Shown here: positions 3,480 through 58,100 of the stretch, piece after piece
Numbering within the stretch: position 1 is the stretch's first letter
Layout: each line of letters begins with the position of its first letter
NCBI GenBank assembly: GCA_949752745.1
Contig: OX457027.1
Coordinates: 93,567,728 to 93,631,727, forward strand
Length of the DNA stretch: 64,000 nucleotides
Reading direction: 5' to 3'
Source of the DNA: Protula sp. h YS-2021
Lineage: Eukaryota > Annelida > Polychaeta > Sabellida > Serpulidae
The notes under the pieces: model-generated
Database searches by the model: none
What the model was told of the DNA's origin: nothing
The model's input: only the letters and a program-made list of their open reading frames with translations
Translations under genes and position numbers: made by a program

Positions 3480-5420
3480 CTTAAAGAACGATTCACCATT
3501 ATCTCACAAGTTAGAGCGATTTTGAACTCACATTCGGCGAAGTTGACCATTTTCTTGAAACAGGTTTAGATATAAAACCATTTTGAGCTTATTTTCCACT
3601 TTTGAGCCAAAAGACGTTACGTAAGAGGCAACTCTTGGCTTATTTTTGTCACTATGTAAGAGGTACCTGGGTGACCTTAACCACCTCAGTCATGTAAATC
3701 TAAAAAACCGGAAATCGACCATTATCTCGAAAACGGTTAGAGACAGAGCGATTTAAGCATGTTCTCGACCCTCCAGACTTATTTTTGGATCTTATGTAAG
3801 AAGTATCTCGGTGACCTTAATAACCTCGGCCATGGTCAAGGTCAAAAACCGGAAGTTGAACATTATCTCGAAAGTGGCTAGAACTAGAGGGGTTTGAGCA
3901 TATTTTCGACCCTTCAGGCCTAAAACACATAATGTAACAGGTACCTCTTGACCTGATCGGTTTTGGTCAGTATTGAAAACCGGAAGTTGACCACTATCTC
4001 GAAAACGGTTAGATATAGAGCTTTTTTTGTTAATTTCCGGCCCTTTCAGTCTAAAGTTCGTTAAGTCAGAGGTATCTCGGTGACCTTTACTTTATCTGTC
4101 ATTTTCAATGTCAAAAACTGGAAGTTGACCATTATCTTGAAAAAGTTTTAGACATAGAATTATTTTGAACTTATTTTCGACTTTTGAAGCAAAAAGACGC
4201 TATGTAAGAGGCAGCTCTGGGCTTATTTTCGTCCCAATGTAAGAGGTTCCTCGGTGACCTTGACTCCATTGGTCATGTCAATATAAAAACCGGAAGACGA
4301 CCGTTATCTCGAAAAGGATTAGAGACAGAGCGACTTTAGCTTGTTCTCGACCCTCTAGGCTTATTTTCGATCCTGTGTAAGAGGTATCTAAGTCACTTTG
4401 ATATCCTCGGTCATGGTTAAGGTCAAAACTGTAAGTTAAACATTATCTCGAAAACGTTCAGAGACACAGCGGTTTTGAGCTTAGTTTCGGCCCTTTGGCA
4501 ATAAAAACGTAAAAGTAAAAGGTATCTCAGTGACCTTGACCTCTCGAACATGTCATTGTAAAGAAAGCATGTTAACCATCATCTCGAAAATGGTTAGAGA
4601 TTCCACATGCGACCTTTGAGGCCAAAGACGTCACGTAAGTGGTACCTCGGTGATCTTGACCTCCTCGGTTAAATTTTGTATTAAAAACCGGAAGTGAACC
4701 ATTATCTCGAAAACGTTTTGAGACAGAGCGATTTTTAGCTTATTTTCGACTCTATAGGCCTCGGAGATGTTATGTAAGACGTACATCGGTGAAGTTGATC
4801 TCTTTGGTCATGGTCCAGGTCTAGAACCCGGAATTTGACCATTATCTCGAAAATGATTAGAGATAAAGCTATTTTGAGCTTATTTTCGACCCTTTGGACC
4901 TTACAGATGTTATGTAAGAAGTACCACGGCGACCTTGACTCCTCGGTCACGGTCAGGGTCATGGCTTGACCATCTCGAAAAAGTTCAGAAACAGAGCTAT
5001 TGTCAGGTTATTTTATACTCTTTTATGGTATAAGGGACGTTTCTTAAGAGGTACTTCACTGATCTTAACCTCCTCGGTCAAGGTCAAAGTAGAGCACCGA
5101 ACGTTGACCATTATCTCGGAACCGCTCAGAGATAAAGCTATTTTGAGCTTATTTTTGGTCCTTTGGGCCTTTAAGACGATAGGTAAGCAGTATATGGGTG
5201 ACTTTGACCTTCTTGGTCGTGGTCAAGGCCAAAAAACCGGAATTTGACCATTATCTCGAAAACGGTTGGCGATTTTAAGGTTATTTTTTACCATTCGCGC
5301 CCAAAAGACGTTGTGTTTTAGGTACTTCGGTGACCTTGGCCATCTCGGTGATGGTCAAGGTTAATAAGCAGAAGATGGCCATTATCTCGAAAACAGTGTA
5401 GAGATTTTGAGCTTATTTTC
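3480..5420. repeat. diverged satellite, about 14 copies of a roughly 120-225 bp unit (mostly 130-145)
   Basis: The phrase CCATTATCTCGAAAA recurs near 3494, 3719, 3861, 3992, 4129, 4300, 4440, 4578, 4698, 4839, 4970, 5108, 5247 and 5379. It is followed each time by variants of GAGCTTATTTTCGACC, GTAAGAGGTACCTCGGTGACC and CTCGGTCATGGTCAAGG. Copies are strongly diverged, so the array is old. No coding potential was seen. Confidence 0.9.
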
Positions 5421-6944: not shown

Positions 6945-6950
6945 AATAAG
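6945..6950. repeat. left target-site duplication AATAAG
   Basis: AATAAG abuts the left terminus of the palindromic element and is repeated in direct orientation at 15083-15088 next to the right terminus. A 6-bp duplication is known for Maverick/Polinton insertions. Confidence 0.75.
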
Positions 6951-6982
6951 AGTAGGGTGAAAAGGACAGTTCTACCGCACTT

Positions 6983-7250
6983 TGTGACGTCATCATGTCT
7001 GGAAGTGACGTCATACTGTCTGGAAGTGACGTCATCATGTCTGGAAGTGACGTCATACTGTCTGGAAGTGACGTCATCATGTCTGGACCGGAAGTGCTGT
7101 CTAGACCGGAAGTGCTGTCTAGACCGGAAGTGTTGTCTAGACCGGAAGTGCTGTCTGGAGTGGAAGTGACGTCATCATGTCTGGACCGGAAGTGACATCA
7201 TGATGTCTGGACCGGAAGTGACGTCATGATGTCTGGACCGGAAGTCATGA
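6983..7250. repeat. left terminal array of TGACGTCA and GTCTGGAAGTG/GACCGGAAGTG units
   Basis: Alternating short repeats: the CRE octamer TGACGTCA followed by GTCTGGAAG, then several CTGTCTAGACCGGAAGTG units. CCGGAAGTG also matches the ETS-type consensus. This may be a transcription-factor or replication-factor binding platform near the terminus, which is inference. Mirrored at 14783-15050. Confidence 0.85.
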
Positions 7251-7547
7251 TAAGCGTTAGGATAGGCGCGACCATCTGTGACGTCATCATGGCGTCATAC
7301 TGAGATGATGCTGTCTGGAGCGAAAGTGGTTTGGCCGAGTCAATCAACATGAAGCCAATGAACTCCTGCTGTCAATCATCATGACGTCACTAGTCACGTG
7401 ACCTGTCAATCATCGGTCATGTGACCCTAACCCTAGCGAGACTTCCAGACCACTTTTTGACGTCATACTGACGTCCCTTCTACCATCTGTCTATCATACC
7501 TTCATAATACACATTCATAATACACTCTATGGTTTAGGGGTAGGCTG

Positions 7548-7632
7548 CCCATACCCGGGGCTCGAACCACCAACCTTCTGAGCATGGGTCCGACCAGGAG
7601 TCCCACGCTCTAACAACTGAGCTATTCCGGAC
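7548..7632 (-). repeat. tRNA-like (SINE-type) sequence in the left arm
   Basis: The minus strand contains the A-box-like TAGCTCAGTTGTTAGAGCG and B-box-like GGTTCGAGCCC. The T-stem pairs badly, so this is not a functional tRNA gene but a tRNA-derived sequence captured before the palindrome formed. Mirror copy at 14401-14485. Confidence 0.55.
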
Positions 7633-7953
7633 TGAACAAGAATGTATTGTGAAAACATGCCATGTAAGGCTATAATGCACGATAAATTTCAGACTGCACT
7701 CGTTCAGAGCGTGGGGGAAACCGATCGATAAAATTTCAGAGTGCACTCGTTCAGAGCGTGGGGAAAAAACCGATCGATAAAAATTTTTTAGAGTACACTC
7801 GTTCAGAGCGTGGGGAAAACGATGGTTCTGCCAAACTTGATGACGTCATACTGTCTGGAAGTGACGTCATACTGTCTGGAAGTGATGCCGGTTCTGCCAC
7901 ACTTGATGACGTCATACTGTCAATCATTGTGACATGAGGTGTCATAATGACGT

Positions 7954-9112
7954 CATAGTTACACCTTAGTAACGCCTTGGTTACGCCTTAGTTACCTTAG
8001 TTACGCCTTAGTTACGCCTTAGTTACGCCTTGGTTATGCCTTAGTTACGCCATAGTTACCTTAGTTACTCCTTAGTTACGCCTTAGTTACGCCTTAGTTA
8101 CCTTAGTTACGCCTTAGTTACGCCTTGGTTACAGTGGTTACACCTTAGTTACGCCTTAGTTACCTTAGTTACGCCTTGGTTACGCCTTAGTTACCTTAGT
8201 TACGCCTTAGTTACGCCTTAGTTACGCCTTAATTACCTTAGTTACGCCTTAGTTACCTTAGTTACTCCTTAGTTACGCCTTAGTTACGCCTTAGTTACCT
8301 TAGTTACGCCTTAGTTACGCCTTAATTACCTTAGTTACGCCTTAGTTACCTTAGTTACTCCTTAGTTACGCCTTAGTTACGCCTTTATTTCCTTAGTTAC
8401 GCCTTAGTTACGCCTTGATTTCCTTAGTTACGCCTTAGTTACGCCTTGGTTACAGTAGTTACACCTTAGTTACGCCTTAGTTACCTTAGTTACTCCTTAG
8501 TTACGCCTTTGTTACCTTAGTTACGCCTTAGTTACGCCTTAGTTACCTTAGTTACGCCTTAGTTACGCCTTAGTTACGCCTTAATTACCTTAGTTACGCC
8601 TTAGTTACCTTAGTTACTCCTTAGTTACGCCTTAGTTACGCCTTTATTTCCTTAGTTACGCCTTAGTTACGCCTTGATTTCCTTAGTTACGCCTTAGTTA
8701 CGCCTTGGTTACAGTAGTTACACCTTAGTTACGCCTTAGTTACCTAAGTTACTCCTTAATTACGCCTTAGTTACGCCTTAGTTACCTTGGTTACGCCTTA
8801 GTTACCTTAGTTACGCCTTAGTTACGCTTGGTTACACCTTAGTTACGCCTTAGTTACCTTAGTTACTCCTTAGTTACGCCTTAGTTACCTTAGTTACGCC
8901 TTGGTTACGCCTTAGTTACCTAAGTTACGCCTTAGTTACGCCTTGATTTCCTTAGTTACGCCTTAGTTACGCCTTAGTTACGCCTTAATTACCTTAGTTA
9001 CGCCTTAGTTACGCCTTAGTTACGCCTTAGTTACCTTAGTTACGCCTTAGTTACGCCTTAGTTGCGCCTTAGTTACATCTTGTTTGCGCCTTAGTTACCT
9101 TAGCTACGCAAA
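7954..9112. repeat. TTACGCCTTAG / TTACCTTAG array, left arm
   Basis: More than 1.1 kb of 11-bp TTACGCCTTAG units mixed with a 9-bp TTACCTTAG variant that lacks GC, and higher-order blocks. Mirrored at 12922-14079. The one arm-length difference sits in this array (CTAGGTAAC versus CTAAGGTAAC near 13513). Confidence 0.95.
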
Positions 9113-9424
9113 AACGAGATAACTTTTGTTGTAGTTGAGCGATTTGCATGAAAATTTTACCGTTTGATTCAGTTTTATATCTAGTTTTAACATTAAGTGA
9201 TCACAGGCTATTTACGCCGGTGGTTGTATGCATCATGGATTCACCTTAAAAGTTTTTAAACTTAAAAGTAAGATAACTTTCGTTATGGTTGACCGATTTG
9301 AATGAAAATTTCACCGTTGGATTCAGTTTGATGTCTTAGTTTTAAAGTAGTTTATGCATAGGTAGGTTGTTGGAATGGCGCGCGCCCACCATTTAAACAT
9401 GTGTTTGAATAAGTTTTACGTCAA

Positions 9425-9712
9425 ACTATTGTTCAACAAGTTGTTTAGCAATTGTACAACAATTGTTCAACAAGCTGTTGTTGAACATGTTCAACATGTT
9501 GTTGAACATGTTCAACATGTTCAACATGTTCAACAACATGTTCAACATGTTCAACATGTTCAACATGTTCAACATGTTCAACAACATGTTCAACAAGTTG
9601 AACATGTTCAACATGTTCAACATGTTGTTGCACAAGTTGAACATGTTCAACATGTTCAACTTGTTCAACAACATGCTGTTTAACAAATTGTTCAACAAGT
9701 TGTAGTTCAAGC
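9425..9712. repeat. self-complementary TTCAACATG array, left arm
   Basis: Dense GTTCAACAT and GTTGAACAT 9-mers, often meeting as TTCAACATGTTGAA. Each unit can pair with its neighbours, so the array is hairpin-prone within one arm. The 9-bp period leaves frames open on both strands, giving spurious VEHVQHV and LNMFNM ORFs. Confidence 0.95.
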
Positions 9713-9751
9713 AAAGAAAAAACAAGACATATGTTGAATAGGTTTATTAAT

Positions 9752-9837
9752 ACATTTAAATACACTTAAATACACTTAAATACATTTAACTACACTTAAA
9801 TACACTTAAATACACTTAAATACACTTAAATACATAC
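9752..9837. repeat. ACTTAAATAC array, left arm
   Basis: Eight or so 10-bp units ACTTAAATAC, lying downstream of the C2H2 gene. Mirrored at 12197-12282. Confidence 0.9.
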
Positions 9838-9884
9838 AGCTTAAATCTTTAACAATATTACAATATTTGTTGATCTACAAAGTC

Positions 9885-9890
9885 TTTATT
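9885..9890 (-). terminator. AATAAA polyadenylation signal, left copy
   Basis: AATAAA on the minus strand 22 nt after the stop codon of the left C2H2 gene. Confidence 0.7.
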
Positions 9891-9911
9891 ATAAAGTTTA
9901 GTCAAATAAGT

Positions 9912-10649
9912 CTATTTTTCTTCATCTGCTTCACTCTGTTCACTGGCATCCATATCACTTTTTTCGTCGCTGCTTTCATCTTCCTCCTCCTCATCTAGAA
10001 GCTCTTCAAAGAATGCATCGTTTCTTCTTATAGCCGCCTTTAGTGCCTTTGAATACTCGTAATGTTTTTCATCAACAAAGTAATTGAAGTCTTCTAAAAT
10101 GGTTTCATAATGTTCGTTTTGTTGTAGACGTTGGGCATATTTGAATAGTCTCATAAACAGTTGTTTAAGTCGACGCTTATAAATGGGTCGAAAGTCATCA
10201 CTTGCTATGTCACGCGCATCTTCAAGCCCTTGGTCTTCATATTCTGAAACCTTTTCTTGAAATTTGGTATCATATTCATCGTAGACTTCTTGAACCATAT
10301 CATACCAAACAGAGTCTGTTTCTGACTCACTTTCAGAGTCTGTTTCTGACTCACTTTCAGAGCTGCCGTCATTATCACCCTCAACACAATGTTCCATATG
10401 TTTGAACAAAGCTTCTTGACTGTTGTATAACGCACCACATTCTGTACAAGCATGTGCATTCTTTTCAGTCATGTTGACGCTTTGACTTTCCATAGAAGAC
10501 TCATCTAAAATTTCAGTGATAGGTGGTTTTACAGGGTTTTCCACATCTATCTCCAATTCTTCTTCTTCTGAAGTGTGAGCATTCTTTAAGTGCCTTTTAA
10601 GACTTTGTGGCCAATTGTAAGATTTCAAACAAATGTTGCATTTATACAT
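9912..10649 (-). CDS. acidic C2H2 zinc-finger protein, left copy (245 aa)
   Basis: Identical to the protein of 11385-12122 and transcribed in the opposite direction, toward the left terminus. It has two Cys/His fingers (Cys4-Cys7-His20-His25 and Cys68-Cys71-His84-His87, the latter followed by Cys88), a Ser/Glu/Asp repeat around residues 94-112, a charged helical region from about 113 to 215, and a very acidic tail. The start ATG lies 55 nt downstream of a TATATAA box and is followed after the stop by AATAAA, so it looks like a single-exon gene with its own promoter. It may be a DNA-binding regulator of the element; no enzyme motif is visible. Confidence 0.8.
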   Translation of the reverse strand: MYKCNICLKSYNWPQSLKRHLKNAHTSEEEELEIDVENPVKPPITEILDESSMESQSVNMTEKNAHACTECGALYNSQEALFKHMEHCVEGDNDGSSESESETDSESESETDSVWYDMVQEVYDEYDTKFQEKVSEYEDQGLEDARDIASDDFRPIYKRRLKQLFMRLFKYAQRLQQNEHYETILEDFNYFVDEKHYEYSKALKAAIRRNDAFFEELLDEEEEDESSDEKSDMDASEQSEADEEK

Positions 10650-10703
10650 CCTTTCGGTTCAACATGCACTTTTCAAATGATGAAAAAGCCTTTAAACATA
10701 GCC

Positions 10704-10710
10704 TTATATA
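10704..10710 (-). promoter_or_regulatory. TATA box of left C2H2 gene
   Basis: TATATAA on the minus strand, mirror of 11324-11330. A TTCATCATT initiator-like stretch follows about 25-30 nt downstream. Confidence 0.7.
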
Positions 10711-10775
10711 CAACTTGTTGAACAACATGTTGAACATGTTCAACATGTTGTTGAACATGTTGTTGAACATGTTGT
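10711..10775. repeat. promoter-proximal TTCAACATG array, left arm
   Basis: A short block of the same self-complementary 9-mers sits directly upstream of the TATA box. That places copies of the array on both sides of the gene. Confidence 0.85.
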
Positions 10776-10795
10776 CTATGCCTAGGGGAGTTTAA

Positions 10796-10872
10796 CGTCA
10801 TGACGTCATTATGACGTCATCATTATGACGTCATTATTACGTCATCATTATGACGTCATAATGACGTCATTG
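10796..10872. promoter_or_regulatory. cluster of TGACGTCA (CRE/ATF) octamers, left arm
   Basis: About six near-consecutive ATGACGTCAT palindromes lie about 85-160 bp upstream of the TATA box. TGACGTCA is the known CREB/ATF consensus. Host bZIP control of the gene is inference. Mirror at 11162-11238. Confidence 0.7.
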
Positions 10873-11004
10873 GAACAGGCGCATGCTTTGTCAAAAACTG
10901 ACTCAGCAGAATTTATTGCTGTTTGATATGGATGAAATGCATGTCTCACTCTTCCTTTTATGCTACTTAGATGTAATCAAAATATGGTGTGTAACTCGTC
11001 AAAA

Positions 11005-11029
11005 TCAGCAATTTTTACAAGTTTGGCAT
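11005..11029. other. 25-nt loop at the centre of the palindrome
   Basis: The only non-symmetric internal stretch. Flanked by GTAACTCGTCAAAA and TTTTGACGAGTTAC. The region from 10873 to 11161 around it has no ORF and acts as the shared divergent upstream region of the two gene copies. Confidence 0.9.
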
Positions 11030-11161
11030 TTTTGACGAGTTACACACCATATTTTGATTACATCTAAGTAGCATAAAAGGAAGAGTGAGACATGCATTTC
11101 ATCCATATCAAACAGCAATAAATTCTGCTGAGTCAGTTTTTGACAAAGCATGCGCCTGTTC

Positions 11162-11238
11162 CAATGACGTCATTATGACGTCATAATGATGACGTAATAA
11201 TGACGTCATAATGATGACGTCATAATGACGTCATGACG
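11162..11238. promoter_or_regulatory. cluster of TGACGTCA (CRE/ATF) octamers, right arm
   Basis: Mirror of 10796-10872, upstream of the right TATA box. Confidence 0.7.
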
Positions 11239-11258
11239 TTAAACTCCCCTAGGCATAG

Positions 11259-11323
11259 ACAACATGTTCAACAACATGTTCAACAACATGTTGAACATGT
11301 TCAACATGTTGTTCAACAAGTTG
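11259..11323. repeat. promoter-proximal TTCAACATG array, right arm
   Basis: Mirror of 10711-10775. It ends directly at the TATA box. Confidence 0.85.
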
Positions 11324-11330
11324 TATATAA
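11324..11330 (+). promoter_or_regulatory. TATA box of right C2H2 gene
   Basis: TATATAA 55 nt before the start codon. A TTCATCATT initiator-like sequence follows at about 11350. A short upstream ATG at 11369 opens a 7-codon reading frame that overlaps the main start and could damp translation. Confidence 0.7.
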
Positions 11331-11384
11331 GGCTATGTTTAAAGGCTTTTTCATCATTTGAAAAGTGCATGTTGAACCGAAAGG

Positions 11385-12122
11385 ATGTATAAATGCAACA
11401 TTTGTTTGAAATCTTACAATTGGCCACAAAGTCTTAAAAGGCACTTAAAGAATGCTCACACTTCAGAAGAAGAAGAATTGGAGATAGATGTGGAAAACCC
11501 TGTAAAACCACCTATCACTGAAATTTTAGATGAGTCTTCTATGGAAAGTCAAAGCGTCAACATGACTGAAAAGAATGCACATGCTTGTACAGAATGTGGT
11601 GCGTTATACAACAGTCAAGAAGCTTTGTTCAAACATATGGAACATTGTGTTGAGGGTGATAATGACGGCAGCTCTGAAAGTGAGTCAGAAACAGACTCTG
11701 AAAGTGAGTCAGAAACAGACTCTGTTTGGTATGATATGGTTCAAGAAGTCTACGATGAATATGATACCAAATTTCAAGAAAAGGTTTCAGAATATGAAGA
11801 CCAAGGGCTTGAAGATGCGCGTGACATAGCAAGTGATGACTTTCGACCCATTTATAAGCGTCGACTTAAACAACTGTTTATGAGACTATTCAAATATGCC
11901 CAACGTCTACAACAAAACGAACATTATGAAACCATTTTAGAAGACTTCAATTACTTTGTTGATGAAAAACATTACGAGTATTCAAAGGCACTAAAGGCGG
12001 CTATAAGAAGAAACGATGCATTCTTTGAAGAGCTTCTAGATGAGGAGGAGGAAGATGAAAGCAGCGACGAAAAAAGTGATATGGATGCCAGTGAACAGAG
12101 TGAAGCAGATGAAGAAAAATAG
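11385..12122 (+). CDS. acidic C2H2 zinc-finger protein, right copy (245 aa)
   Basis: Single-exon gene. The N-terminal finger YKCNICLKSYNWPQSLKRH (Cys4, Cys7, His20, His25) is classical C2H2. The second finger has Cys68, Cys71, His84, His87 and an extra Cys88. A duplicated SESESETD segment follows, then a charged, probably helical region (Trp113-Tyr-Asp to Glu-Glu-Leu-Leu near 214) and a terminal Asp/Glu/Ser run. The start has A at -3 and follows TATATAA by 55 nt. AATAAA lies at 12144-12149. I recall similar finger-plus-acidic-helical proteins among marine invertebrate predictions but cannot verify this. Possible roles are transcriptional control of the element or of the host by DNA binding plus an acidic activation region. 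No catalytic motif is present. Confidence 0.85.
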   Translation: MYKCNICLKSYNWPQSLKRHLKNAHTSEEEELEIDVENPVKPPITEILDESSMESQSVNMTEKNAHACTECGALYNSQEALFKHMEHCVEGDNDGSSESESETDSESESETDSVWYDMVQEVYDEYDTKFQEKVSEYEDQGLEDARDIASDDFRPIYKRRLKQLFMRLFKYAQRLQQNEHYETILEDFNYFVDEKHYEYSKALKAAIRRNDAFFEELLDEEEEDESSDEKSDMDASEQSEADEEK

Positions 12123-12143
12123 ACTTATTTGACTAAACTTTAT

Positions 12144-12149
12144 AATAAA
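12144..12149 (+). terminator. AATAAA polyadenylation signal, right copy
   Basis: AATAAA 22 nt after the stop codon, followed by a T/G-rich stretch. Confidence 0.75.
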
Positions 12150-12196
12150 GACTTTGTAGATCAACAAATATTGTAATATTGTTAAAGATTTAAGCT

Positions 12197-12282
12197 GTAT
12201 GTATTTAAGTGTATTTAAGTGTATTTAAGTGTATTTAAGTGTAGTTAAATGTATTTAAGTGTATTTAAGTGTATTTAAATGT
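12197..12282. repeat. GTATTTAAGT array, right arm
   Basis: Mirror of the ACTTAAATAC array at 9752-9837. Confidence 0.9.
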
Positions 12283-12321
12283 ATTAATAAACCTATTCAA
12301 CATATGTCTTGTTTTTTCTTT

Positions 12322-12609
12322 GCTTGAACTACAACTTGTTGAACAATTTGTTAAACAGCATGTTGTTGAACAAGTTGAACATGTTGAACATGTTCAACTT
12401 GTGCAACAACATGTTGAACATGTTGAACATGTTCAACTTGTTGAACATGTTGTTGAACATGTTGAACATGTTGAACATGTTGAACATGTTGAACATGTTG
12501 TTGAACATGTTGAACATGTTGAACATGTTCAACAACATGTTGAACATGTTCAACAACAGCTTGTTGAACAATTGTTGTACAATTGCTAAACAACTTGTTG
12601 AACAATAGT
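12322..12609. repeat. self-complementary TTCAACATG array, right arm
   Basis: Mirror of 9425-9712. Confidence 0.95.
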
Positions 12610-12921
12610 TTGACGTAAAACTTATTCAAACACATGTTTAAATGGTGGGCGCGCGCCATTCCAACAACCTACCTATGCATAAACTACTTTAAAACTAAGA
12701 CATCAAACTGAATCCAACGGTGAAATTTTCATTCAAATCGGTCAACCATAACGAAAGTTATCTTACTTTTAAGTTTAAAAACTTTTAAGGTGAATCCATG
12801 ATGCATACAACCACCGGCGTAAATAGCCTGTGATCACTTAATGTTAAAACTAGATATAAAACTGAATCAAACGGTAAAATTTTCATGCAAATCGCTCAAC
12901 TACAACAAAAGTTATCTCGTT

Positions 12922-14079
12922 TTTGCGTAGCTAAGGTAACTAAGGCGCAAACAAGATGTAACTAAGGCGCAACTAAGGCGTAACTAAGGCGTAACTAAGG
13001 TAACTAAGGCGTAACTAAGGCGTAACTAAGGCGTAACTAAGGTAATTAAGGCGTAACTAAGGCGTAACTAAGGCGTAACTAAGGAAATCAAGGCGTAACT
13101 AAGGCGTAACTTAGGTAACTAAGGCGTAACCAAGGCGTAACTAAGGTAACTAAGGCGTAACTAAGGAGTAACTAAGGTAACTAAGGCGTAACTAAGGTGT
13201 AACCAAGCGTAACTAAGGCGTAACTAAGGTAACTAAGGCGTAACCAAGGTAACTAAGGCGTAACTAAGGCGTAATTAAGGAGTAACTTAGGTAACTAAGG
13301 CGTAACTAAGGTGTAACTACTGTAACCAAGGCGTAACTAAGGCGTAACTAAGGAAATCAAGGCGTAACTAAGGCGTAACTAAGGAAATAAAGGCGTAACT
13401 AAGGCGTAACTAAGGAGTAACTAAGGTAACTAAGGCGTAACTAAGGTAATTAAGGCGTAACTAAGGCGTAACTAAGGCGTAACTAAGGTAACTAAGGCGT
13501 AACTAAGGCGTAACTAGGTAACAAAGGCGTAACTAAGGAGTAACTAAGGTAACTAAGGCGTAACTAAGGTGTAACTACTGTAACCAAGGCGTAACTAAGG
13601 CGTAACTAAGGAAATCAAGGCGTAACTAAGGCGTAACTAAGGAAATAAAGGCGTAACTAAGGCGTAACTAAGGAGTAACTAAGGTAACTAAGGCGTAACT
13701 AAGGTAATTAAGGCGTAACTAAGGCGTAACTAAGGTAACTAAGGCGTAACTAAGGCGTAACTAAGGAGTAACTAAGGTAACTAAGGCGTAACTAAGGTAA
13801 TTAAGGCGTAACTAAGGCGTAACTAAGGCGTAACTAAGGTAACTAAGGCGTAACCAAGGCGTAACTAAGGTAACTAAGGCGTAACTAAGGTGTAACCACT
13901 GTAACCAAGGCGTAACTAAGGCGTAACTAAGGTAACTAAGGCGTAACTAAGGCGTAACTAAGGAGTAACTAAGGTAACTATGGCGTAACTAAGGCATAAC
14001 CAAGGCGTAACTAAGGCGTAACTAAGGCGTAACTAAGGTAACTAAGGCGTAACCAAGGCGTTACTAAGGTGTAACTATG
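12922..14079. repeat. CTAAGGCGTAA array, right arm
   Basis: Mirror of 7954-9112. Confidence 0.95.
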
Positions 14080-14400
14080 ACGTCATTATGACACCTCATG
14101 TCACAATGATTGACAGTATGACGTCATCAAGTGTGGCAGAACCGGCATCACTTCCAGACAGTATGACGTCACTTCCAGACAGTATGACGTCATCAAGTTT
14201 GGCAGAACCATCGTTTTCCCCACGCTCTGAACGAGTGTACTCTAAAAAATTTTTATCGATCGGTTTTTTCCCCACGCTCTGAACGAGTGCACTCTGAAAT
14301 TTTATCGATCGGTTTCCCCCACGCTCTGAACGAGTGCAGTCTGAAATTTATCGTGCATTATAGCCTTACATGGCATGTTTTCACAATACATTCTTGTTCA

Positions 14401-14485
14401 GTCCGGAATAGCTCAGTTGTTAGAGCGTGGGACTCCTGGTCGGACCCATGCTCAGAAGGTTGGTGGTTCGAGCCCCGGGTATGGG
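14401..14485 (+). repeat. tRNA-like (SINE-type) sequence in the right arm
   Basis: Mirror of 7548-7632, with the A-box-like and B-box-like elements on the plus strand. Read through it, a 70-aa ORF is spurious. Confidence 0.55.
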
Positions 14486-14782
14486 CAGCCTACCCCTAAA
14501 CCATAGAGTGTATTATGAATGTGTATTATGAAGGTATGATAGACAGATGGTAGAAGGGACGTCAGTATGACGTCAAAAAGTGGTCTGGAAGTCTCGCTAG
14601 GGTTAGGGTCACATGACCGATGATTGACAGGTCACGTGACTAGTGACGTCATGATGATTGACAGCAGGAGTTCATTGGCTTCATGTTGATTGACTCGGCC
14701 AAACCACTTTCGCTCCAGACAGCATCATCTCAGTATGACGCCATGATGACGTCACAGATGGTCGCGCCTATCCTAACGCTTA

Positions 14783-15050
14783 TCATGACTTCCGGTCCAG
14801 ACATCATGACGTCACTTCCGGTCCAGACATCATGATGTCACTTCCGGTCCAGACATGATGACGTCACTTCCACTCCAGACAGCACTTCCGGTCTAGACAA
14901 CACTTCCGGTCTAGACAGCACTTCCGGTCTAGACAGCACTTCCGGTCCAGACATGATGACGTCACTTCCAGACAGTATGACGTCACTTCCAGACATGATG
15001 ACGTCACTTCCAGACAGTATGACGTCACTTCCAGACATGATGACGTCACA
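14783..15050. repeat. right terminal TGACGTCA / CACTTCCGGTC array
   Basis: Mirror of 6983-7250. Confidence 0.85.
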
Positions 15051-15082
15051 AAGTGCGGTAGAACTGTCCTTTTCACCCTACT

Positions 15083-15088
15083 AATAAG
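15083..15088. repeat. right target-site duplication AATAAG
   Basis: Direct repeat of 6945-6950. Confidence 0.75.
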
Positions 15089-33669: not shown

Positions 33670-36600
33670 CTGGCCAAGGACCCATTTTCTCGTGCGTTAT
33701 TATCATTTTGATTTCAGACTCCATAGCACAACCGTTGCCTAATGTGTAAAACGCCGAAATCAGCTGTTCTGTCAACTCTTCGTCTGATTTGTCTCCTGAT
33801 ATCTCTCGCCATCTCTTTTAGTTGCAACAAAACAATGTGATAATAAATTTAGTAAACCTTGCAAGATTTATTTAAATTTCTACAATTTTATGTTTTGTAA
33901 CGGAATGTTTGCGTTAATCCGTTAATTTTCTTTTAGAGCTATAATTTCCCATACTTGCTGCTTCAAAGATGCTCACCCTCAAAATGTCTACTGACGTATC
34001 TTGTACTTTGCGATGTTTATTATTCATCTCGAACTGCTCCATTTCATGTGTCTTGACACCTAACAAGATTCCCAGACGTCTTTGTTCGTTACCAATTTTA
34101 TTTGCAATCTTCACAAAGGCATTATCAGTAAAAACACCTGGAAATTTTCATATAAATCTATAATTATATTATTCATATAAACATAACTCTATCAATCAAT
34201 CACTCCATCAAATAATCATTTGAACATGAAAAATAAGGGAGCGATATCTAAGGCAAATTTCGGGCATATGTTCAGTAGTAATTTAATAAATATAGACTTA
34301 CTACTTTCTATGTTATTAGGAATTGCTATCTTTCACTCAGCGATATGTTCGAAATTGATTTTACTAACATTTTGTGCAATTTTAGATATAATAAGGAGTC
34401 ATTTGTCTTATTTATTAGTAGTTACTTGAAATATGAAAATATGATAATCTGAAACAAGCAAAAAGAAGTGAATATGAGTGCAACTAATCCAAATTAGAGT
34501 ACAGTTGTTGGATGTAGTAATCTGAAGAAAGCCAATCGGAATGCATAAGAGAAGTTTGTTCTTATCTCAGTACATTTAATGTATCCGGGCGAATGGTGAT
34601 ATTATTGCACATGCGTTGCAATTCCAGCTTTATTGCGACAAAAATTCAACTATGTGATTTAACTAAACAAGCAAGACATATTTCAACTATGCAAGCACTC
34701 AAACGAAATACTAAAAAAGCTCTGGTAATAAATAAATTAGTATCAAAGCAGTTATGAACACAATTTTACTGGCAAGTTTCTTCCTGCCTCCACCTCTTTA
34801 TAGTTTTACAAACCTGTATATGTGGAACACCTGACGTCACTATGACGCGGTTCATTTGTTTTTCTTCTTTCCTTGTCTTTGTTTTTAGATTCTGATTTGT
34901 GTAGCTGCGGCAAGGTATACGCACTATCATTGTTACTCATAAATGTCACATTTCTCATCCCAACTGTTTTTTTTCTCTTTGCACTACATACACGACTCAT
35001 ATATAAACGATCATAGACGCCACTGGAAGAATCATTAACGTGACTTGAAGCAGAACCTGTCGCCTTAATGTCGTCCACACGATCATCTGCAGTAACACTA
35101 CTCGATGTTGAAAATGTAGACTGGCGCAGTCCATGAGAAAGCACTTCAGTTATTTGATTTCTCTTATGGAACATTGCAACGTCTAGGGCAGTATAACCTG
35201 TTGAGTCCCGTATTGTAGAATCGGCCTCATATTGCAACAAAAGTTTGGTTACTTCTATAGCGTTATGTTCTGCTGTAACGTGAAGCGCTGTTCGACCATT
35301 CACATCAATGACGTTGCAATTGGCGTTGCTTTCTAACAACAACTTCGCAGTATGCTGGTACCTTTGTTCTGAAGCAAAGAACAATGCGCTGCGGCCATCG
35401 TTGTCTGTTACATTTACTGTAGCCCCAGCTTTAAATAAGAAATTCATCACATCATCAGCACTATATCTAGCTGCTATCATCAATGCTGTTGTGCCGTACT
35501 TGTTTGCGTAATTAACATTAGCACGACCTTGTACAAGAGCAATTGCTGCTTCAATGGCATTATTCTTTGCTGCGTAAAATAATGCGGTCCAACTTTTTTC
35601 ATCCAGTTCTTCTGTTTTAGCACCAAATTGAATTAATACAGGGATCACCTTAAAGGCATCATAGACAACTGCAGTCATTAATGGTGTTAATCCATTGTCG
35701 CCATGGTAATCCACATTTGCACCATTCTGCAGAAGAATTTCTGCGACTTGTGATGAATTTTGTTCTGAAGCATAAAATAAAGCGATGGATTTGTCTTCAT
35801 TTATTCTATCAACAGCACCCCCTTTAAGTAATATTTACAGGGCATCAATTGCGGCACTTCTTACTGTTATCATAAAGGCTGTTTGGCCATCTTTATCATG
35901 ATGATTGACATTAGCCCCTCGAATTCGGAGAAGATCTACAGCTCGATGTGCATTGTGTTTTGATGCATGGAGCAAAGCCGTCCAGCTATGCTCATCTGTT
36001 GCATCTATTGTGGCATCAGCGTCGAGTAACATTTTCATTATTTCGACTTCGTCATTTCTCGCAGCAAGCATAAGAGCGGTTAAACCACCAATGATGCAAT
36101 GATTTACATTTGCACCTTTATCTAAAAGAAGTTTTAGGGCTTGACAAGCATTGTATTGAAGAGCCCATATCAATGCGGTCTTTTTCTTTTTGTCCGTTCG
36201 TTCTAACTCAGCTCCAGCTTTAAGTAAGACCAATATTACATCTACTGAATCATATATCACTGCTATTGTCAGTGGCGATACATCATACTGGTTGTAATCA
36301 TTCACATTAGCACCGTGGCTAAGCAGTAGCTCTGCAGCATTTGGGGCATTTCTCTGTGATGCGAAAAATAGCGCGGACCAATAGTTCTGTGTAGTTACAG
36401 CCACAGTAGCTCCGGCTTTCAACAGTAAGAGCATAACATCTGTTGCGTCATTTTTCGCTGCAATCATAAGTGGAGTTAGGTTGTACTTATCGAAACGGTC
36501 AACACCGGCCTCTTCCTGTAGTAGTATTTCAATAGACTGATGAGCATTATTTTCCACTGCGTAAAACAGTGCTGTCCAACCGTTAACATCTACTTTTGTT

Positions 36601-38408
36601 ACACACCGATCAAATTCTAAAAGCGTACGGAGAACATCTACTGCATCATTCTGTGCTGCTACCATTAGCGCTGTTGCTCGATAGTTATTTAAGTGATCAT
36701 ATTTAGCACCTTTTGTACGCAGTAATTTTACAGCCCGAGCAGCATTTTTTTCTGATGCATAAAACAACGCTGTCCAGTTCTTTTCATCTGTCTTTTCTAG
36801 AGCAGCACCAAACTTTAACAATACTGCTATGACATCAACTGCATCATTGGCAGCTGCTCTCATAAGTGGAGTTGTTCCATGGTCATCACAATAATCAACT
36901 CTAGCCCCTTTTGCTAACAACAGCTTTGCTGCTTTGGACGAATTCATCTCGGACGCATATAATAATGCAGTACACTTCTCTCCACTTGCATCTTCTACAA
37001 ATACTCCTTTGTCAATCAACAGCTCTAGTACATCCACAGAATCATGTCGTGCAGCAATTAATAAAGGATTCTCACCGTTCTCATTGCATTGATTAATATT
37101 AGCATTTGCTTCAATCAGCAGTTTTGTTGCGTGGTGAGAATTTCTCTGCGCTGCGTGAAACAGTGCGCTCCATCCGTTTGCGTCCGATGCTTCTACCGCA
37201 GCCCGTTTATTTAGTAATAAAGATGTTACAGCTGCTGCATCATTCCGTGCTGCGATCATCAGTGCTGTAACGCCATCTTTGCTGCAATAATTTACATTAG
37301 AACCCTTCTTTAGAAGAAGTTGCGCTGCTGTATAAGCATTTGTCTCAGATGCGTAAAATAATGGTATCCAGCTTTGTCCATCTGTTGATTTTATATCAAT
37401 ATTCTTAAGCAAAACAGGAATAACGTCCACTGCATTATTAGCTGCAGCTATCATTAAGAGTGTTGTGCCATGATCATTACAATGATTGAGATTCACATAT
37501 TTCTTGACCAATAGGTTTAGAGCTTTTTTAGCATTGTTTGCTGCAGCATAAAATGCTGCTGTCCAGTTCTTATCGTCTGTTTTCTCTGGCACAGCACCAT
37601 GCATTACCAGTAACGGTATCATATCGACTGCATTTTTGGCAGCTGCTATCATAAGCGGTGTTGCCCCATGCTTACTACGATGATGAACATTAGCACCTTT
37701 GCGGAGCAGAACTTTGGCTGTTTCTGAAAAATTGTTCTCCGAAGCGTAAAATAAGGCAGTCCACCCATTGTCATCCATTGCTTCCAGTTCAACCCTGGCA
37801 TCGGCCAACACTTCCACAACATCGCGTGCGCCATGAAGCGCGGCAACCATAAGCACAGTGGCATTATACTTACAGCGATGCTTCATATTTGCACCGTTAT
37901 TCAAAAGCAATTTCACTGCATGGCGGGCATTGCGTGCTGATGCCCAAAACAAAGCCGTTTTACCGTTTTTATCAGTTGCTTCCAGTTCAGCTCTTTTATT
38001 TAACAACACCCCTATTACACATATTGCATTATTGTAAGCTGCAAACATAAGCGCTGTGGCTGAATCGCTTGAACGTTTTGCATTGACGTCCGCTCCGTGA
38101 TCTATAAGGATTTCAGCGATGCCCTTGTGGTCTTTTTGAGTACAAAACATTAGAGAGGTTGTGCCGTCCTGTGTGCTTAAATTGACATCAACTCCTTGCT
38201 TTTGTAGTAAATCGCGCACGCCAATATACTTGCTTTTGATGCAGGCCATGTGTAATGGCACTGACGTTGGCTGCCAGTCTAGACTGTAGCTATAATTGTG
38301 GAGTGAACTCAATAATGTCTCCTCTCTGATATAGGCTCCGTACTGTGAAAAAATTTTACCATGCTCTAACTTCTTTAGCAATTTAACATTCTGTCCTACA
38401 CTTCTTCT
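33670..38408 (-). CDS. ankyrin-repeat and Death-domain protein, one in-frame stop
   Basis: Three minus-strand exons share one frame. Exon A (38408-34814) encodes about 30 ankyrin repeats (TPLMIAAxNDAVDVIxxLLxxGA type), then a Ser/Thr/Lys-rich tail with KRKKT. Exon B (34137-33977) and exon C (33814-33670) encode a Death domain: FVKIANKIGNEQRRLGILLG, VKTHEMEQFE, then across the junction DILRRWREISGDKSDEEL. Splice sites are GT/AG and phases match (1, 0, then 1 out). Such proteins are cytosolic adaptors in immune or apoptotic signalling in invertebrates. Upstream exons are needed, since exon A opens at an acceptor with no ATG. One TAA (35837-35835) interrupts an otherwise perfect frame at residue about 849, leaving 40 more codons before a 302-aa continuation. 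It may be a young pseudogene, a polymorphism, a sequence error or readthrough. Confidence 0.75.
34138..34813 (-). other. intron between the ankyrin exon and Death-domain exon
   Basis: Begins GTTTGT and ends TTTCCAG on the minus strand. AT-rich, no ORF of note. Confidence 0.65.
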
Positions 38409-55197: not shown

Positions 55198-58100
55198 GTT
55201 TGAGGCATCCCTAAGGGGTTGAGCATACGACTTGCGCTTTTTAGTCGATCCGACAATTTCTGTATTTTTTGGGAATTTTTGAAGAATAACTTCAAAAATG
55301 CATTTCCTCCTACAGTTTTTATCCGATTTCATTTATTTTTGGCTATGAGGCATCCTTAGGTAGGCAGGGGAATTTTTGATGAAAATACCTCAAAATGAAT
55401 TTTCTCCTGCAGTTTTGATCAAACATCATGTATTTTGGGGCTGAGGCATGCTTAGGGTGTCGTGAATATGGCCTGTCTTTTTCTGTCGATGAGAGAATTT
55501 TTGAAGAAAACAATTCAAAATGCATTTCCTCCTACAGTTTTTATCAGATTTCATTTATTTCCGATATGAGCCGTCTCTAGGGGGTCATGCATACGGCTTG
55601 TGCTTTTTGAGTGAATTGGAAAACTTTTGAATTTTTTTCGGAATTTTTGAAAAAAAAATTAAATGAATCTCCTCCTACAACGCATAAACGCAAGTTAAAT
55701 GAACTTGCGCAGTAGTCAGATTTAACAACCGCACATCGACGCGAGTTAAATGAACATTCGCAGTAGTCCAAATTAAGTACTGCGCATCGATGCAAGTTAA
55801 ATAAACATGCGCATTGGTCCGAAATGTGAACCGCGCATCGACGGAAGATAAATAAAGATGCGAACTGGTCCAAAATAAGCACCGCGCATCAACGCAAGTT
55901 ACATAAACATGCGCACTTGTCCGAAAAAAGAACTACGCATCGACGTAAGTTAAATAGACATGCGCAGTGGTCCGAAATGCGAACCGCGCATCAACGCAGC
56001 CTAAAGAAACATGCGCACTGGTCAAAAATGAGCACCGAGCATCAACGCAAGTTAAATAAACATGCGCACTTCTCCGGAATTCGAACCGCGCATCAACGCA
56101 AGTTAAATAAACATGCGCAGTTTCGAAATGCGAACCACGCTCCAGCGCAAGTTAAAAAAAAACATTTGCACTGGTCCAAAATAAGCACTGCGCATCAACG
56201 CAAGTTAAATAAACATGCGCACTGGTCCGAAATTCGAACTGCTCATCAACGCAAGTTGAATAACCACGCACACTGGTCCAAAATGCAAACCGCGCACCAA
56301 CGCAAGTTAAATAAACATATGCACACGTCCAAAATAAGCACCGTGCATCAACGCAAGTTAAATAAACATGCAAACTGGTCCGAAATGCAAACCGCGCATC
56401 AAGGCAACCTAAGGAAACTTGGGCTGTCCCAAATAAGTACCGCTCATCAACGCAAGTAAAATAAACATGCGCATTGGTATGGAATAAGAACCGCACATCA
56501 ACACAAGGTAAATAAACATGCGCACTGATCCGAAATAAGAACCGCACATCAACACAAGGTAAATAAACATGCGCACTGATCCGAAATAAGAACCGCACTT
56601 CCACACAAGGTAAAAAAACATGGGCGCTCGTCCGAAATGCGAACCGCACATCAACGCAAGTTAAATAAACATGTGCACTGTTCCAAAATGAGAGCCGCGC
56701 ATCTACGGAAAATTAAATAAACATGCGCACTTGTCTGAATAAGAACCGCGCATCAAGGCAAGTTACATAAATATGCGCACTGGTCCGAAATGCGAGCGTT
56801 GTTTGAAGGTATCTATGGCAGACTATCCAGTCTACCAGAGATACAAAAAATTTGTTTCCCATTTTTCTGGGAAAGAAATCTTTGTATGCATTTATCGGTC
56901 TATGTTCTGGTCCGGTACTAAATTAATTATTGAGCTAGCTCTTTGCCGTCTCATCTTTTGAAGCCCAATTTTTCAGGAAAATTCCCTTGCTCATGCACGC
57001 TGGAATTGGTCTTATTGCTTTTCATAAGCTGGGACTTTGTCCTTAGACAAATTTGTTATTTATTTCACTGGGAATTGTTGTCGACGGAAATGTTAAGCTT
57101 AAGCAAGTAACTTTTCACACAGCAACGACCGTATAACAAACGGGAGTAACAGTACCCGTTGCCAGTCACAAAGTGGAAGTCTACATCAAGTACCGGTAAT
57201 GCTTTACTACTACGGAAATGATTCTATGGCTGATTTAACAGGGGATGGAGGTATGTCAGGTGATGGAGGCATGTCAGGTCAAGGAGATTCATCAGGGGGA
57301 GGAGGCATGTCAGGCCATGGAGATTCATCAGGAGGAGGAGGCATGTCAGGCCATGGAGATTCATCAGGAGGTGGAGGCATGCCCGGTCAAGGAGATGCAA
57401 CAGGGGGAGGAGGCATGTCAGGTCATGGAGATTCATCAGGGGGAGGAGGCATGTCAGGTCATGGAGATTCATCAGGAGGTGGAGGCATGCCCGGTCAAGG
57501 AGATGCAACAGGGGGAGGAGGCTTGTCAGGCCATGGAGATTCATCAGGGGGAGGAGGCATGTCAGGCCATGGAGATTCATCAGGAGGTGGAGGCATGCCC
57601 GGTCAAGGAGATGCAACAGGGGGAGGAGGCATGTCAGGTCATGGAGATTCATCAGGGGGAGGAGGCATGTCAGGCCATGGAGATTCATCAGGAGGTGGAG
57701 GCATGCCCGGTCAAGGAGATGCAACAGGGGGAGGAGGCATGTCAGGCCATGGAGATTCATCAGGTGGAGGAGGCATGTCAGGCCATGGGGATTCATCAGG
57801 AGGTGGAGGCATGTCAGGCCATGGGGATTCATCAGGAGGTGGAGGCATGCCCGGTCAAGGAGATGCAACAGGGGGAGGAGGCATGTCAGGTCATGGAGAT
57901 TCATCAGGGGGAGGAGGCATGTCAGGCCATGGGGATTCATCAGGAAGTGGAGGCATGCCCGGTCAAGGAGATTTACCAGGAGGCGGAGGAGATACACAAG
58001 AGGATGGAAACCCTAACCGCGAAAACCCTGACGATGATGGTAACAGGGACGATGGCAACACCGGTCAAACAGACAACAGACGTCCTGGAGGTCAGAGCAT

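Follow-up and report, generated by a model that had tools for sequence, protein, structure and literature searches.

How can a mobile element consist almost entirely of one inverted repeat, what moves it, and what keeps its two halves alike? These questions are raised by a locus in the genome of Protula sp. h YS-2021 (GCA_949752745.1), where a 64,000-nucleotide (nt) stretch of contig OX457027.1 (forward strand, 93,567,728-93,631,727; hereafter the window) carries an 8132-bp palindrome at positions 6951..15082 that is abutted on both sides by the hexamer AATAAG. We propose that this element is probably a satellite of the Maverick/Polinton elements resident in the same genome, with a palindromic form that arose when a strand snapped back or switched in the course of protein-primed replication, and with arms that are renewed from one another around transposition.

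A family of palindromic elements

When one arm of the element is compared with the reverse complement of the other, a single alignment results that has no mismatches and one 1-nt gap. A separate repeat scan also finds these arms, divided into two blocks (2487 and 1567 nt) that are 100% complementary. The symmetry breaks off at AGTAGG.../...CCTACT, right at AATAAG. Thus, both the near-perfect palindrome of 8.13 kb and the abrupt end of symmetry at AATAAG flanks, as described in an earlier reading made from the sequence alone (the sequence-only reading), are borne out. Long palindromes are known read artefacts, and a fold-over during sequencing or assembly could in principle have created this one.

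The same reading had proposed a search for other copies in the host genome, and many exist. In the 863-Mb genome (218 contigs), with reversed sequence as a control, the terminal 19-mer was found with at most two mismatches at 414 + 384 places (6 + 4 for the control), and a second terminal type, taken from copy L026 and searched as a 25-mer with at most two mismatches, at 96 + 93 places (control 0). Facing ends were paired among the 100 listed of the 798 19-mer places and 76 of the 100 listed of the 189 25-mer places; the other 24 were unpaired save for two facing pairs with unequal ends, which were omitted (1.65 kb at C3:82274376 and 16.8 kb at C3:13710057). Among the places listed, 79 same-ended facing pairs emerged, with 27 shorter than 9 kb, 47 of 15-19 kb, two of 12.4-12.6 kb and three longer than 19 kb. 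Facing ends 31 kb (C1:40209357-40240242) and 42 kb (C4:86692979-86734616) apart are perhaps nested or composite elements.

We read 30 short elements, comprising the window element, the 26 other short pairs and three copies found via the gene described below (L027-L029). The short relatives are mostly 3-8 kb long. The target duplication that the sequence-only reading wished to see in other copies is present as an exact 6-bp repeat in 27 of the 30, window included. All 30 left flanks are different, and none of 870 cross-element flank pairings match. Palindromic cover is at least 0.9 in 18 elements, 0.5-0.9 in nine and below 0.5 in three, where L029 scores 0.75 although its arms align along their full length in a separate arm alignment. 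Several incomplete palindromes retain no more than a single gene copy or a fragment of it, and seem to have lost the inner portion of one arm. One very short derivative, L019 (655 bp), has family ends and an exact 6-bp duplication, and is non-palindromic.

These observations lead us to reject the artefact, which we regard as extremely improbable because the symmetry stops at a target duplication in copies that differ in locus, length and ends. Each exact duplication is a different 6-mer, the loop also varies between copies, and in some copies the arms have diverged.

Resident Mavericks and the zinc-finger gene

Maverick/Polinton inverted repeats normally span hundreds of bp rather than a full element. 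The sequence-only reading had nevertheless drawn a link to this group from the 6-bp duplication and the 5'-AG termini, and had suggested looking for full Mavericks with the same ends. Elements of 15-19 kb with these ends are present, and protein domains were scanned in two of them. C1:14011730 encodes an integrase (rve plus chromo domains) and an Adeno_IVa2/Pox_A32-like ATPase; its 841-amino-acid (aa) open reading frame (ORF) has only a sub-cut-off match to Endonuclease_7, and resembles a polymerase by eye only. C4:2236934 encodes the same integrase and ATPase combination together with PolB (PF03175, 1e-06), and has an adenovirus-protease-like match just under the cut-off. Integrase and ATPase are therefore found in 2/2 scanned elements and polymerase B in 1/2. 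Three 17-kb elements compared end to end have the family termini in common and terminal repeats of about 0.5-1.3 kb, and exact 6-bp duplications are present in all five 17-kb elements checked for them. From the predicted integrase, the packaging ATPase, the polymerase of one element, the termini and the duplications, we conclude that the scanned 17-kb elements are Mavericks, and the link drawn from sequence alone is upheld by residents that share both features. Maverick C1:14011730 also carries a NADAR-domain gene (PF08719, 9.7e-19; L023 2269-2703).

The window element has what would be expected of a Maverick-dependent element. Its 6-bp duplication, its AGTAG(T/G) terminus within terminal inverted repeats, its few hundred bp of 18-26 bp terminal repeats and its promoter-like block all resemble those of the resident (adintovirus-like) Mavericks, and its termini are common to full-length ones. 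For vertebrate Mavericks, the available part of one study (PMC8097293) suggests that the (AGT)2 motifs at the ends function in jumping-back when replication is protein-primed. The promoter-like block, together with a TGCTGAGTCAGCA motif, lies about 1.0-1.7 kb inside 4/4 Maverick end pieces (L022-L025), and we regard the central block of the satellite as a putative promoter. We take the TGCTGAGTCAGCA motif to be a Maf element by name. Unlike the Mavericks, which are about 17 kb long, the satellite has no polymerase or integrase gene, is an inverted repeat in its entirety and has a zinc-finger gene that did not turn up in the Maverick end pieces examined. At 8132 bp, with no other ORF longer than 106 aa, it falls short of the 15-20 kb and the polymerase B, integrase, ATPase and capsid genes of an autonomous Maverick, and it would probably be mobilized in trans by a Maverick integrase.

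Termini vary between satellite copies, and some closely match particular resident Mavericks. The core of L030 is 99.8-99.9% like that of the window element, whereas its terminal 350 nt are 93.8% like those of the window (156 gap nt) and 98.3% like those of Maverick C1:22726084 (2 gap nt). The ends of L034 (98.4%, 72 gap nt) and L029 (96.8%, 78 gap nt) are also close in sequence to this Maverick over the same length. The terminal 350 nt of the window element are 97.2% like those of Maverick C1:52248227 (L008; 196 gap nt). Thus, the satellite appears to trade termini with its resident helpers.

Could an unrelated cut-and-paste foldback transposon, of the FB, Tetris or MULE type, have come to look like a Maverick at its ends by chance? 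Long inverted repeats made of internal tandem repeats, a small centre and the lack of a visible transposase gene in the element would all suit such an origin. We reject it as very unlikely, given that the 19-25 nt termini, the 6-bp duplications and the promoter-like block are all as in the resident Mavericks, and that the L030 and L029 ends match one Maverick end so closely. Furthermore, Tetris duplications are 8-10 bp long in the part of the source available to us (PMC4079207).

Each arm of the window element holds a gene for a protein with two C2H2 zinc fingers. Of 40 near-full arms from 23 copies, 34 have an open ORF, and in 15 copies both arms do. Among 12 distinct intact ORFs, a small set in which codons with several changes were scored as nonsynonymous, we count 35 nonsynonymous against 23 synonymous changes, for a ratio of 0.36 (p = 0.00025). 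Pairwise ratios of nonsynonymous to synonymous rates (dN/dS) have a median of 0.34 and a range of 0.16-0.74 over 58 non-independent pairs, with ORFs that have stops or other lengths and pairs with dS of at most 0.01 omitted. This pattern of substitutions indicates that the gene is under purifying selection. The proposal that the whole genome of the element is inverted-repeat DNA is therefore correct as to its fully palindromic form, but incomplete because each arm also holds a selected gene.

In a search confined to the ends of Mavericks (pieces L001-L008 and L022-L025), the gene did not turn up. Homology of its product to the first Maverick ORF was rejected (best E 0.22). Searches of phage records and of viral contigs gave no relatives, and solved structures gave generic zinc fingers only (best E 0.01).

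Arms that change together

In general, the two arms of one copy resemble each other far more closely than do arms taken from different copies. Over an 871-nt stretch of the gene, the within-copy differences of 11 two-armed copies total 14. Random re-pairing over the same stretch averages 144 and never falls below 18, and none of 20,000 trials reaches 14, in a test that kept 25 arms with near-full matches and whose weight is reduced by shuffling that ignores the kinship of copies. For the outer 1.5 kb of 14 short elements, 23 of 28 ends are most similar to the opposite end of their own element; the exceptions are both ends of L010 and L019 and one end of L015.

Changes in the ends, in repeat number or in inner parts frequently affect both arms of a copy at once. 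Counting outward from the centre, L026 matches the window element without a mismatch for 2.2 kb, with two gaps (12 nt and 1 nt) that occur in both arms and one of 9 nt in a single arm; beyond that point the outer arm is strongly diverged on both sides. The arms of L026 itself differ by no mismatches and 20 gap nt over 4.15 kb. L026-L029 have an identical gene and yet termini of four types, and in each copy the two ends agree fully over 350 nt; these were picked by gene, and are four of about 22 copies behind the 40 hits that were scored out of 2592 gene-match candidates. In L027, about 270 nt at or near the array of 31-bp units are absent from both arms, and in L021 the gene is gone on both sides. 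The centre varies as well. An identical 25-nt loop, in either orientation, is found in seven copies, and the spacing is also 25 nt in L030 and L031. In L012 and L014 the loop is 60 nt long and nearly symmetric, L009, L010 and L015 have one asymmetric centre in common, and L034 has a new centre from which the promoter-like block is gone. This family shows a genome with two halves that evolve nearly as one.

One element suggests how the palindromic form arises, because it appears to have been made directly from a Maverick end. L035 (C1:78976211-78983861, 7651 bp, duplication TACACT) is devoid of the satellite gene. Its halves have no mismatch and only short gaps (13 and 2 nt), with a loop of 0. 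Its arm is 97.7% identical to the corresponding end of the same-ended Maverick C1:52732195 over 3390 nt, and the first 200 nt are identical. It turns at the 12-bp dyad TGCGCATGCGCA, and TGCGCATGCGCA stands in a Maverick gene in both pieces checked (L022, L024).

To our knowledge, Maverick replication has been modelled on protein-primed viruses and never watched. On the reading that we favour, resident 17-kb Mavericks would provide polymerase and integrase, and replication would begin at the AGTAG(T/G) terminus common to Mavericks and satellites. A growing strand that switched or snapped back at a short dyad would copy one end twice, head to head, and a protein-primed step of this kind may have formed the satellite. 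The Maverick integrase would then insert the product with a 6-bp duplication. One arm could template or correct the other because a displaced palindrome strand can fold into a full-length hairpin, and such hairpin copying may be how both arms are renewed together around transposition. The family has a zinc-finger gene of its own, with a copy in each arm that points away from a centre holding two Maverick-type promoter-like blocks. Chromosomal palindromes with a dyad at the turn could then be fossils of Maverick replication, making strand switching testable by sequence.

In the main rival account, a Maverick-derived element may have been made palindromic by repair, with its arms kept alike by gene conversion on the chromosome. 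In the available part of the work on Galileo, conversion of this kind is put forward for the long terminal repeats of that element, and the growth of inverted repeats in Polintons is cited as well (PMC3573991). Conversion tracts ending at the terminus would spare the target duplication, and the ties noted below leave room for this process. Nevertheless, we judge it unlikely. Arms have drifted apart in some copies such as L016, copies with identical genes differ at both ends together, and L009, L010 and L015 inherited one asymmetric centre. Moreover, conversion has no need of the 12-bp dyad at which L035 turns.

Several other observations weigh against snap-back replication with arm renewal. 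In the 871-nt comparison, arms are strictly nearest to each other in only three of 11 copies (L012, L014, L018), seven tie with another copy (five of them with identical genes), and the arms of L016 differ by 9 of 872 positions whereas the nearest other copy differs by 6. Repeat number differs between the arms of L028 (by 203 nt) and L029 (126 nt), as would be expected of changes after insertion. No exact duplication flanks L016, L037 or L044, and L019, L044 and L045 are barely palindromic. Among nine Maverick end pieces, the best matches to the ends of L014, L026, L028, L031 and L032 are 79-88%, and so the source of these ends was not found. In addition, L035 is the sole case of colinearity with one Maverick end among the elements read. 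In the window element, matches to the Maverick ends compared are confined to the terminal repeats, another stretch of about 115 nt deeper inside and the promoter-like block, and the gene points toward the terminus whereas Maverick genes near the ends point inwards. An origin of the window element by direct snap-back of one Maverick end is thus unsupported, and we reject it. Finally, two elements of 12.4 and 12.6 kb (L046-L049) have Maverick ends, exact 6-bp duplications and end repeats of about 0.4 kb but are not palindromic, and therefore shortening does not always yield a palindrome. The satellite gene was not found in their 3-kb end pieces.

A broader version of the favoured reading is possible, though we hold it with considerable doubt. 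Maverick replication might regularly shed snap-back genomes, one of which became a self-sustaining palindromic satellite lineage that tracks its helpers by taking over their ends. The entire genome of such a satellite would behave as one terminal repeat, and changes would therefore be copied to the other half. The zinc-finger protein may influence how Mavericks or the satellite replicate or are expressed, and the satellite might travel in Maverick particles as a hairpin.

Table 1. Positions of features of the palindromic element, numbered within the window.
Feature	Position	Strand	Basis or remark
Target duplication AATAAG, left copy	6945..6950	.	Read directly
Left palindrome arm, 4054 nt	6951..11004	+	0 mismatches and one 1-nt gap against right arm
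Terminal 18-26 bp repeats with GACGTCA and CCGGAAGT	6984..7251	+	Mirror copy at ~14782-15049
Array of ~31-bp units (GTTACGCCTTA...)	7956..9109	+	Mirror copy at ~12924-14077
245-aa protein, two C2H2 zinc fingers, left-arm copy	9912..10649	-	ORF list and translation
Repeated TGACGTCA (CRE-like) motifs between centre and gene	10800..10870	+	Mirror copy at ~11164-11234
Promoter-like block, mirror copy	10954..10992	-	Two blocks back to back at centre
25-nt loop	11005..11029	.	Identical loop, either orientation, in L018, L026, L027, L028, L029 and L032
Right palindrome arm, 4053 nt	11030..15082	-	Alignment to left arm
Promoter-like block ACACACCATATTTTGATTACAT..AAGTAGCATAAAAGG	11042..11080	+	In 4/4 Maverick end pieces (L022-L025), at most 10 edits
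TATATAA, ~60 nt ahead of gene	11324..11330	+	Read from sequence; mirror copy in left arm
245-aa C2H2 zinc-finger protein, right-arm copy	11385..12122	+	ORF list and copy comparison
AATAAA, ~20 nt past stop codon	12144..12149	+	Read from sequence; mirror copy in left arm
Target duplication AATAAG, right copy	15083..15088	.	Read directly

Elsewhere in the window, positions 463-1065 hold a piece of an ORF that we take, by eye, to resemble asparagine synthetase, and 3704-5392 hold degenerate repeats with a spacing of mostly about 130-140 bp and the motif AAAACCGGAAGTTGACCATTATCTCGAAA. Two long ORFs on the minus strand at 34806-38381 (848 and 302 aa) have ankyrin-like repeats by eye. A 51-bp tandem array at 55613-56863 has an open frame (180 aa), and a 36-bp tandem array at 57149-58132 has multiple open frames, with both strands represented (305, 304 and 257 aa).

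Palindromic genomes and foldback elements

Defective adenovirus genomes have long inverted ends, and one terminal repeat can be repaired from the other. They illustrate that protein-primed replication is able to make long inverted ends and to restore one end from its partner, as proposed here for the satellite. Unlike the satellite, these genomes are neither integrated nor a lineage.

Snap-back genomes of adeno-associated virus (AAV), as described in the available part of one report (PMC8235507), consist of one terminus and a partial genome joined head to head, are self-complementary and can be symmetric or asymmetric; the 3' type places a promoter head to head at its centre. The satellite has this same head-to-head, self-complementary form. 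However, the AAV forms as described there are particle products of a parvovirus with another mode of replication, and not a heritable, integrated family that bears genes.

The sequence-only reading knew of no named family with this form. A named class of comparable shape does exist in the foldback elements, and the form is therefore not wholly unprecedented; what stands is that the open-licence PMC literature, among the matches listed and as far as the available parts of those papers go (including PMC12220804), yielded no Maverick satellite that is heritable, gene-bearing and palindromic throughout. Like FB, Galileo and Tetris, the satellite is non-autonomous, is built largely from long inverted repeats that contain tandem repeats, and includes chimeric copies. 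Its duplications are of another length, at 6 bp rather than the 7 bp of Galileo, which is assigned to P (PMC3573991), or the 8-10 bp of Tetris, for which Mutator is suggested (PMC4079207), both as given in the parts seen. Those same parts mention no gene retained in each arm of Galileo or Tetris, whereas the satellite has one. Galileo chimeras with two different ends have no matching duplications, again in the part available (PMC3573991), whereas the ends of the satellite change on both sides together.

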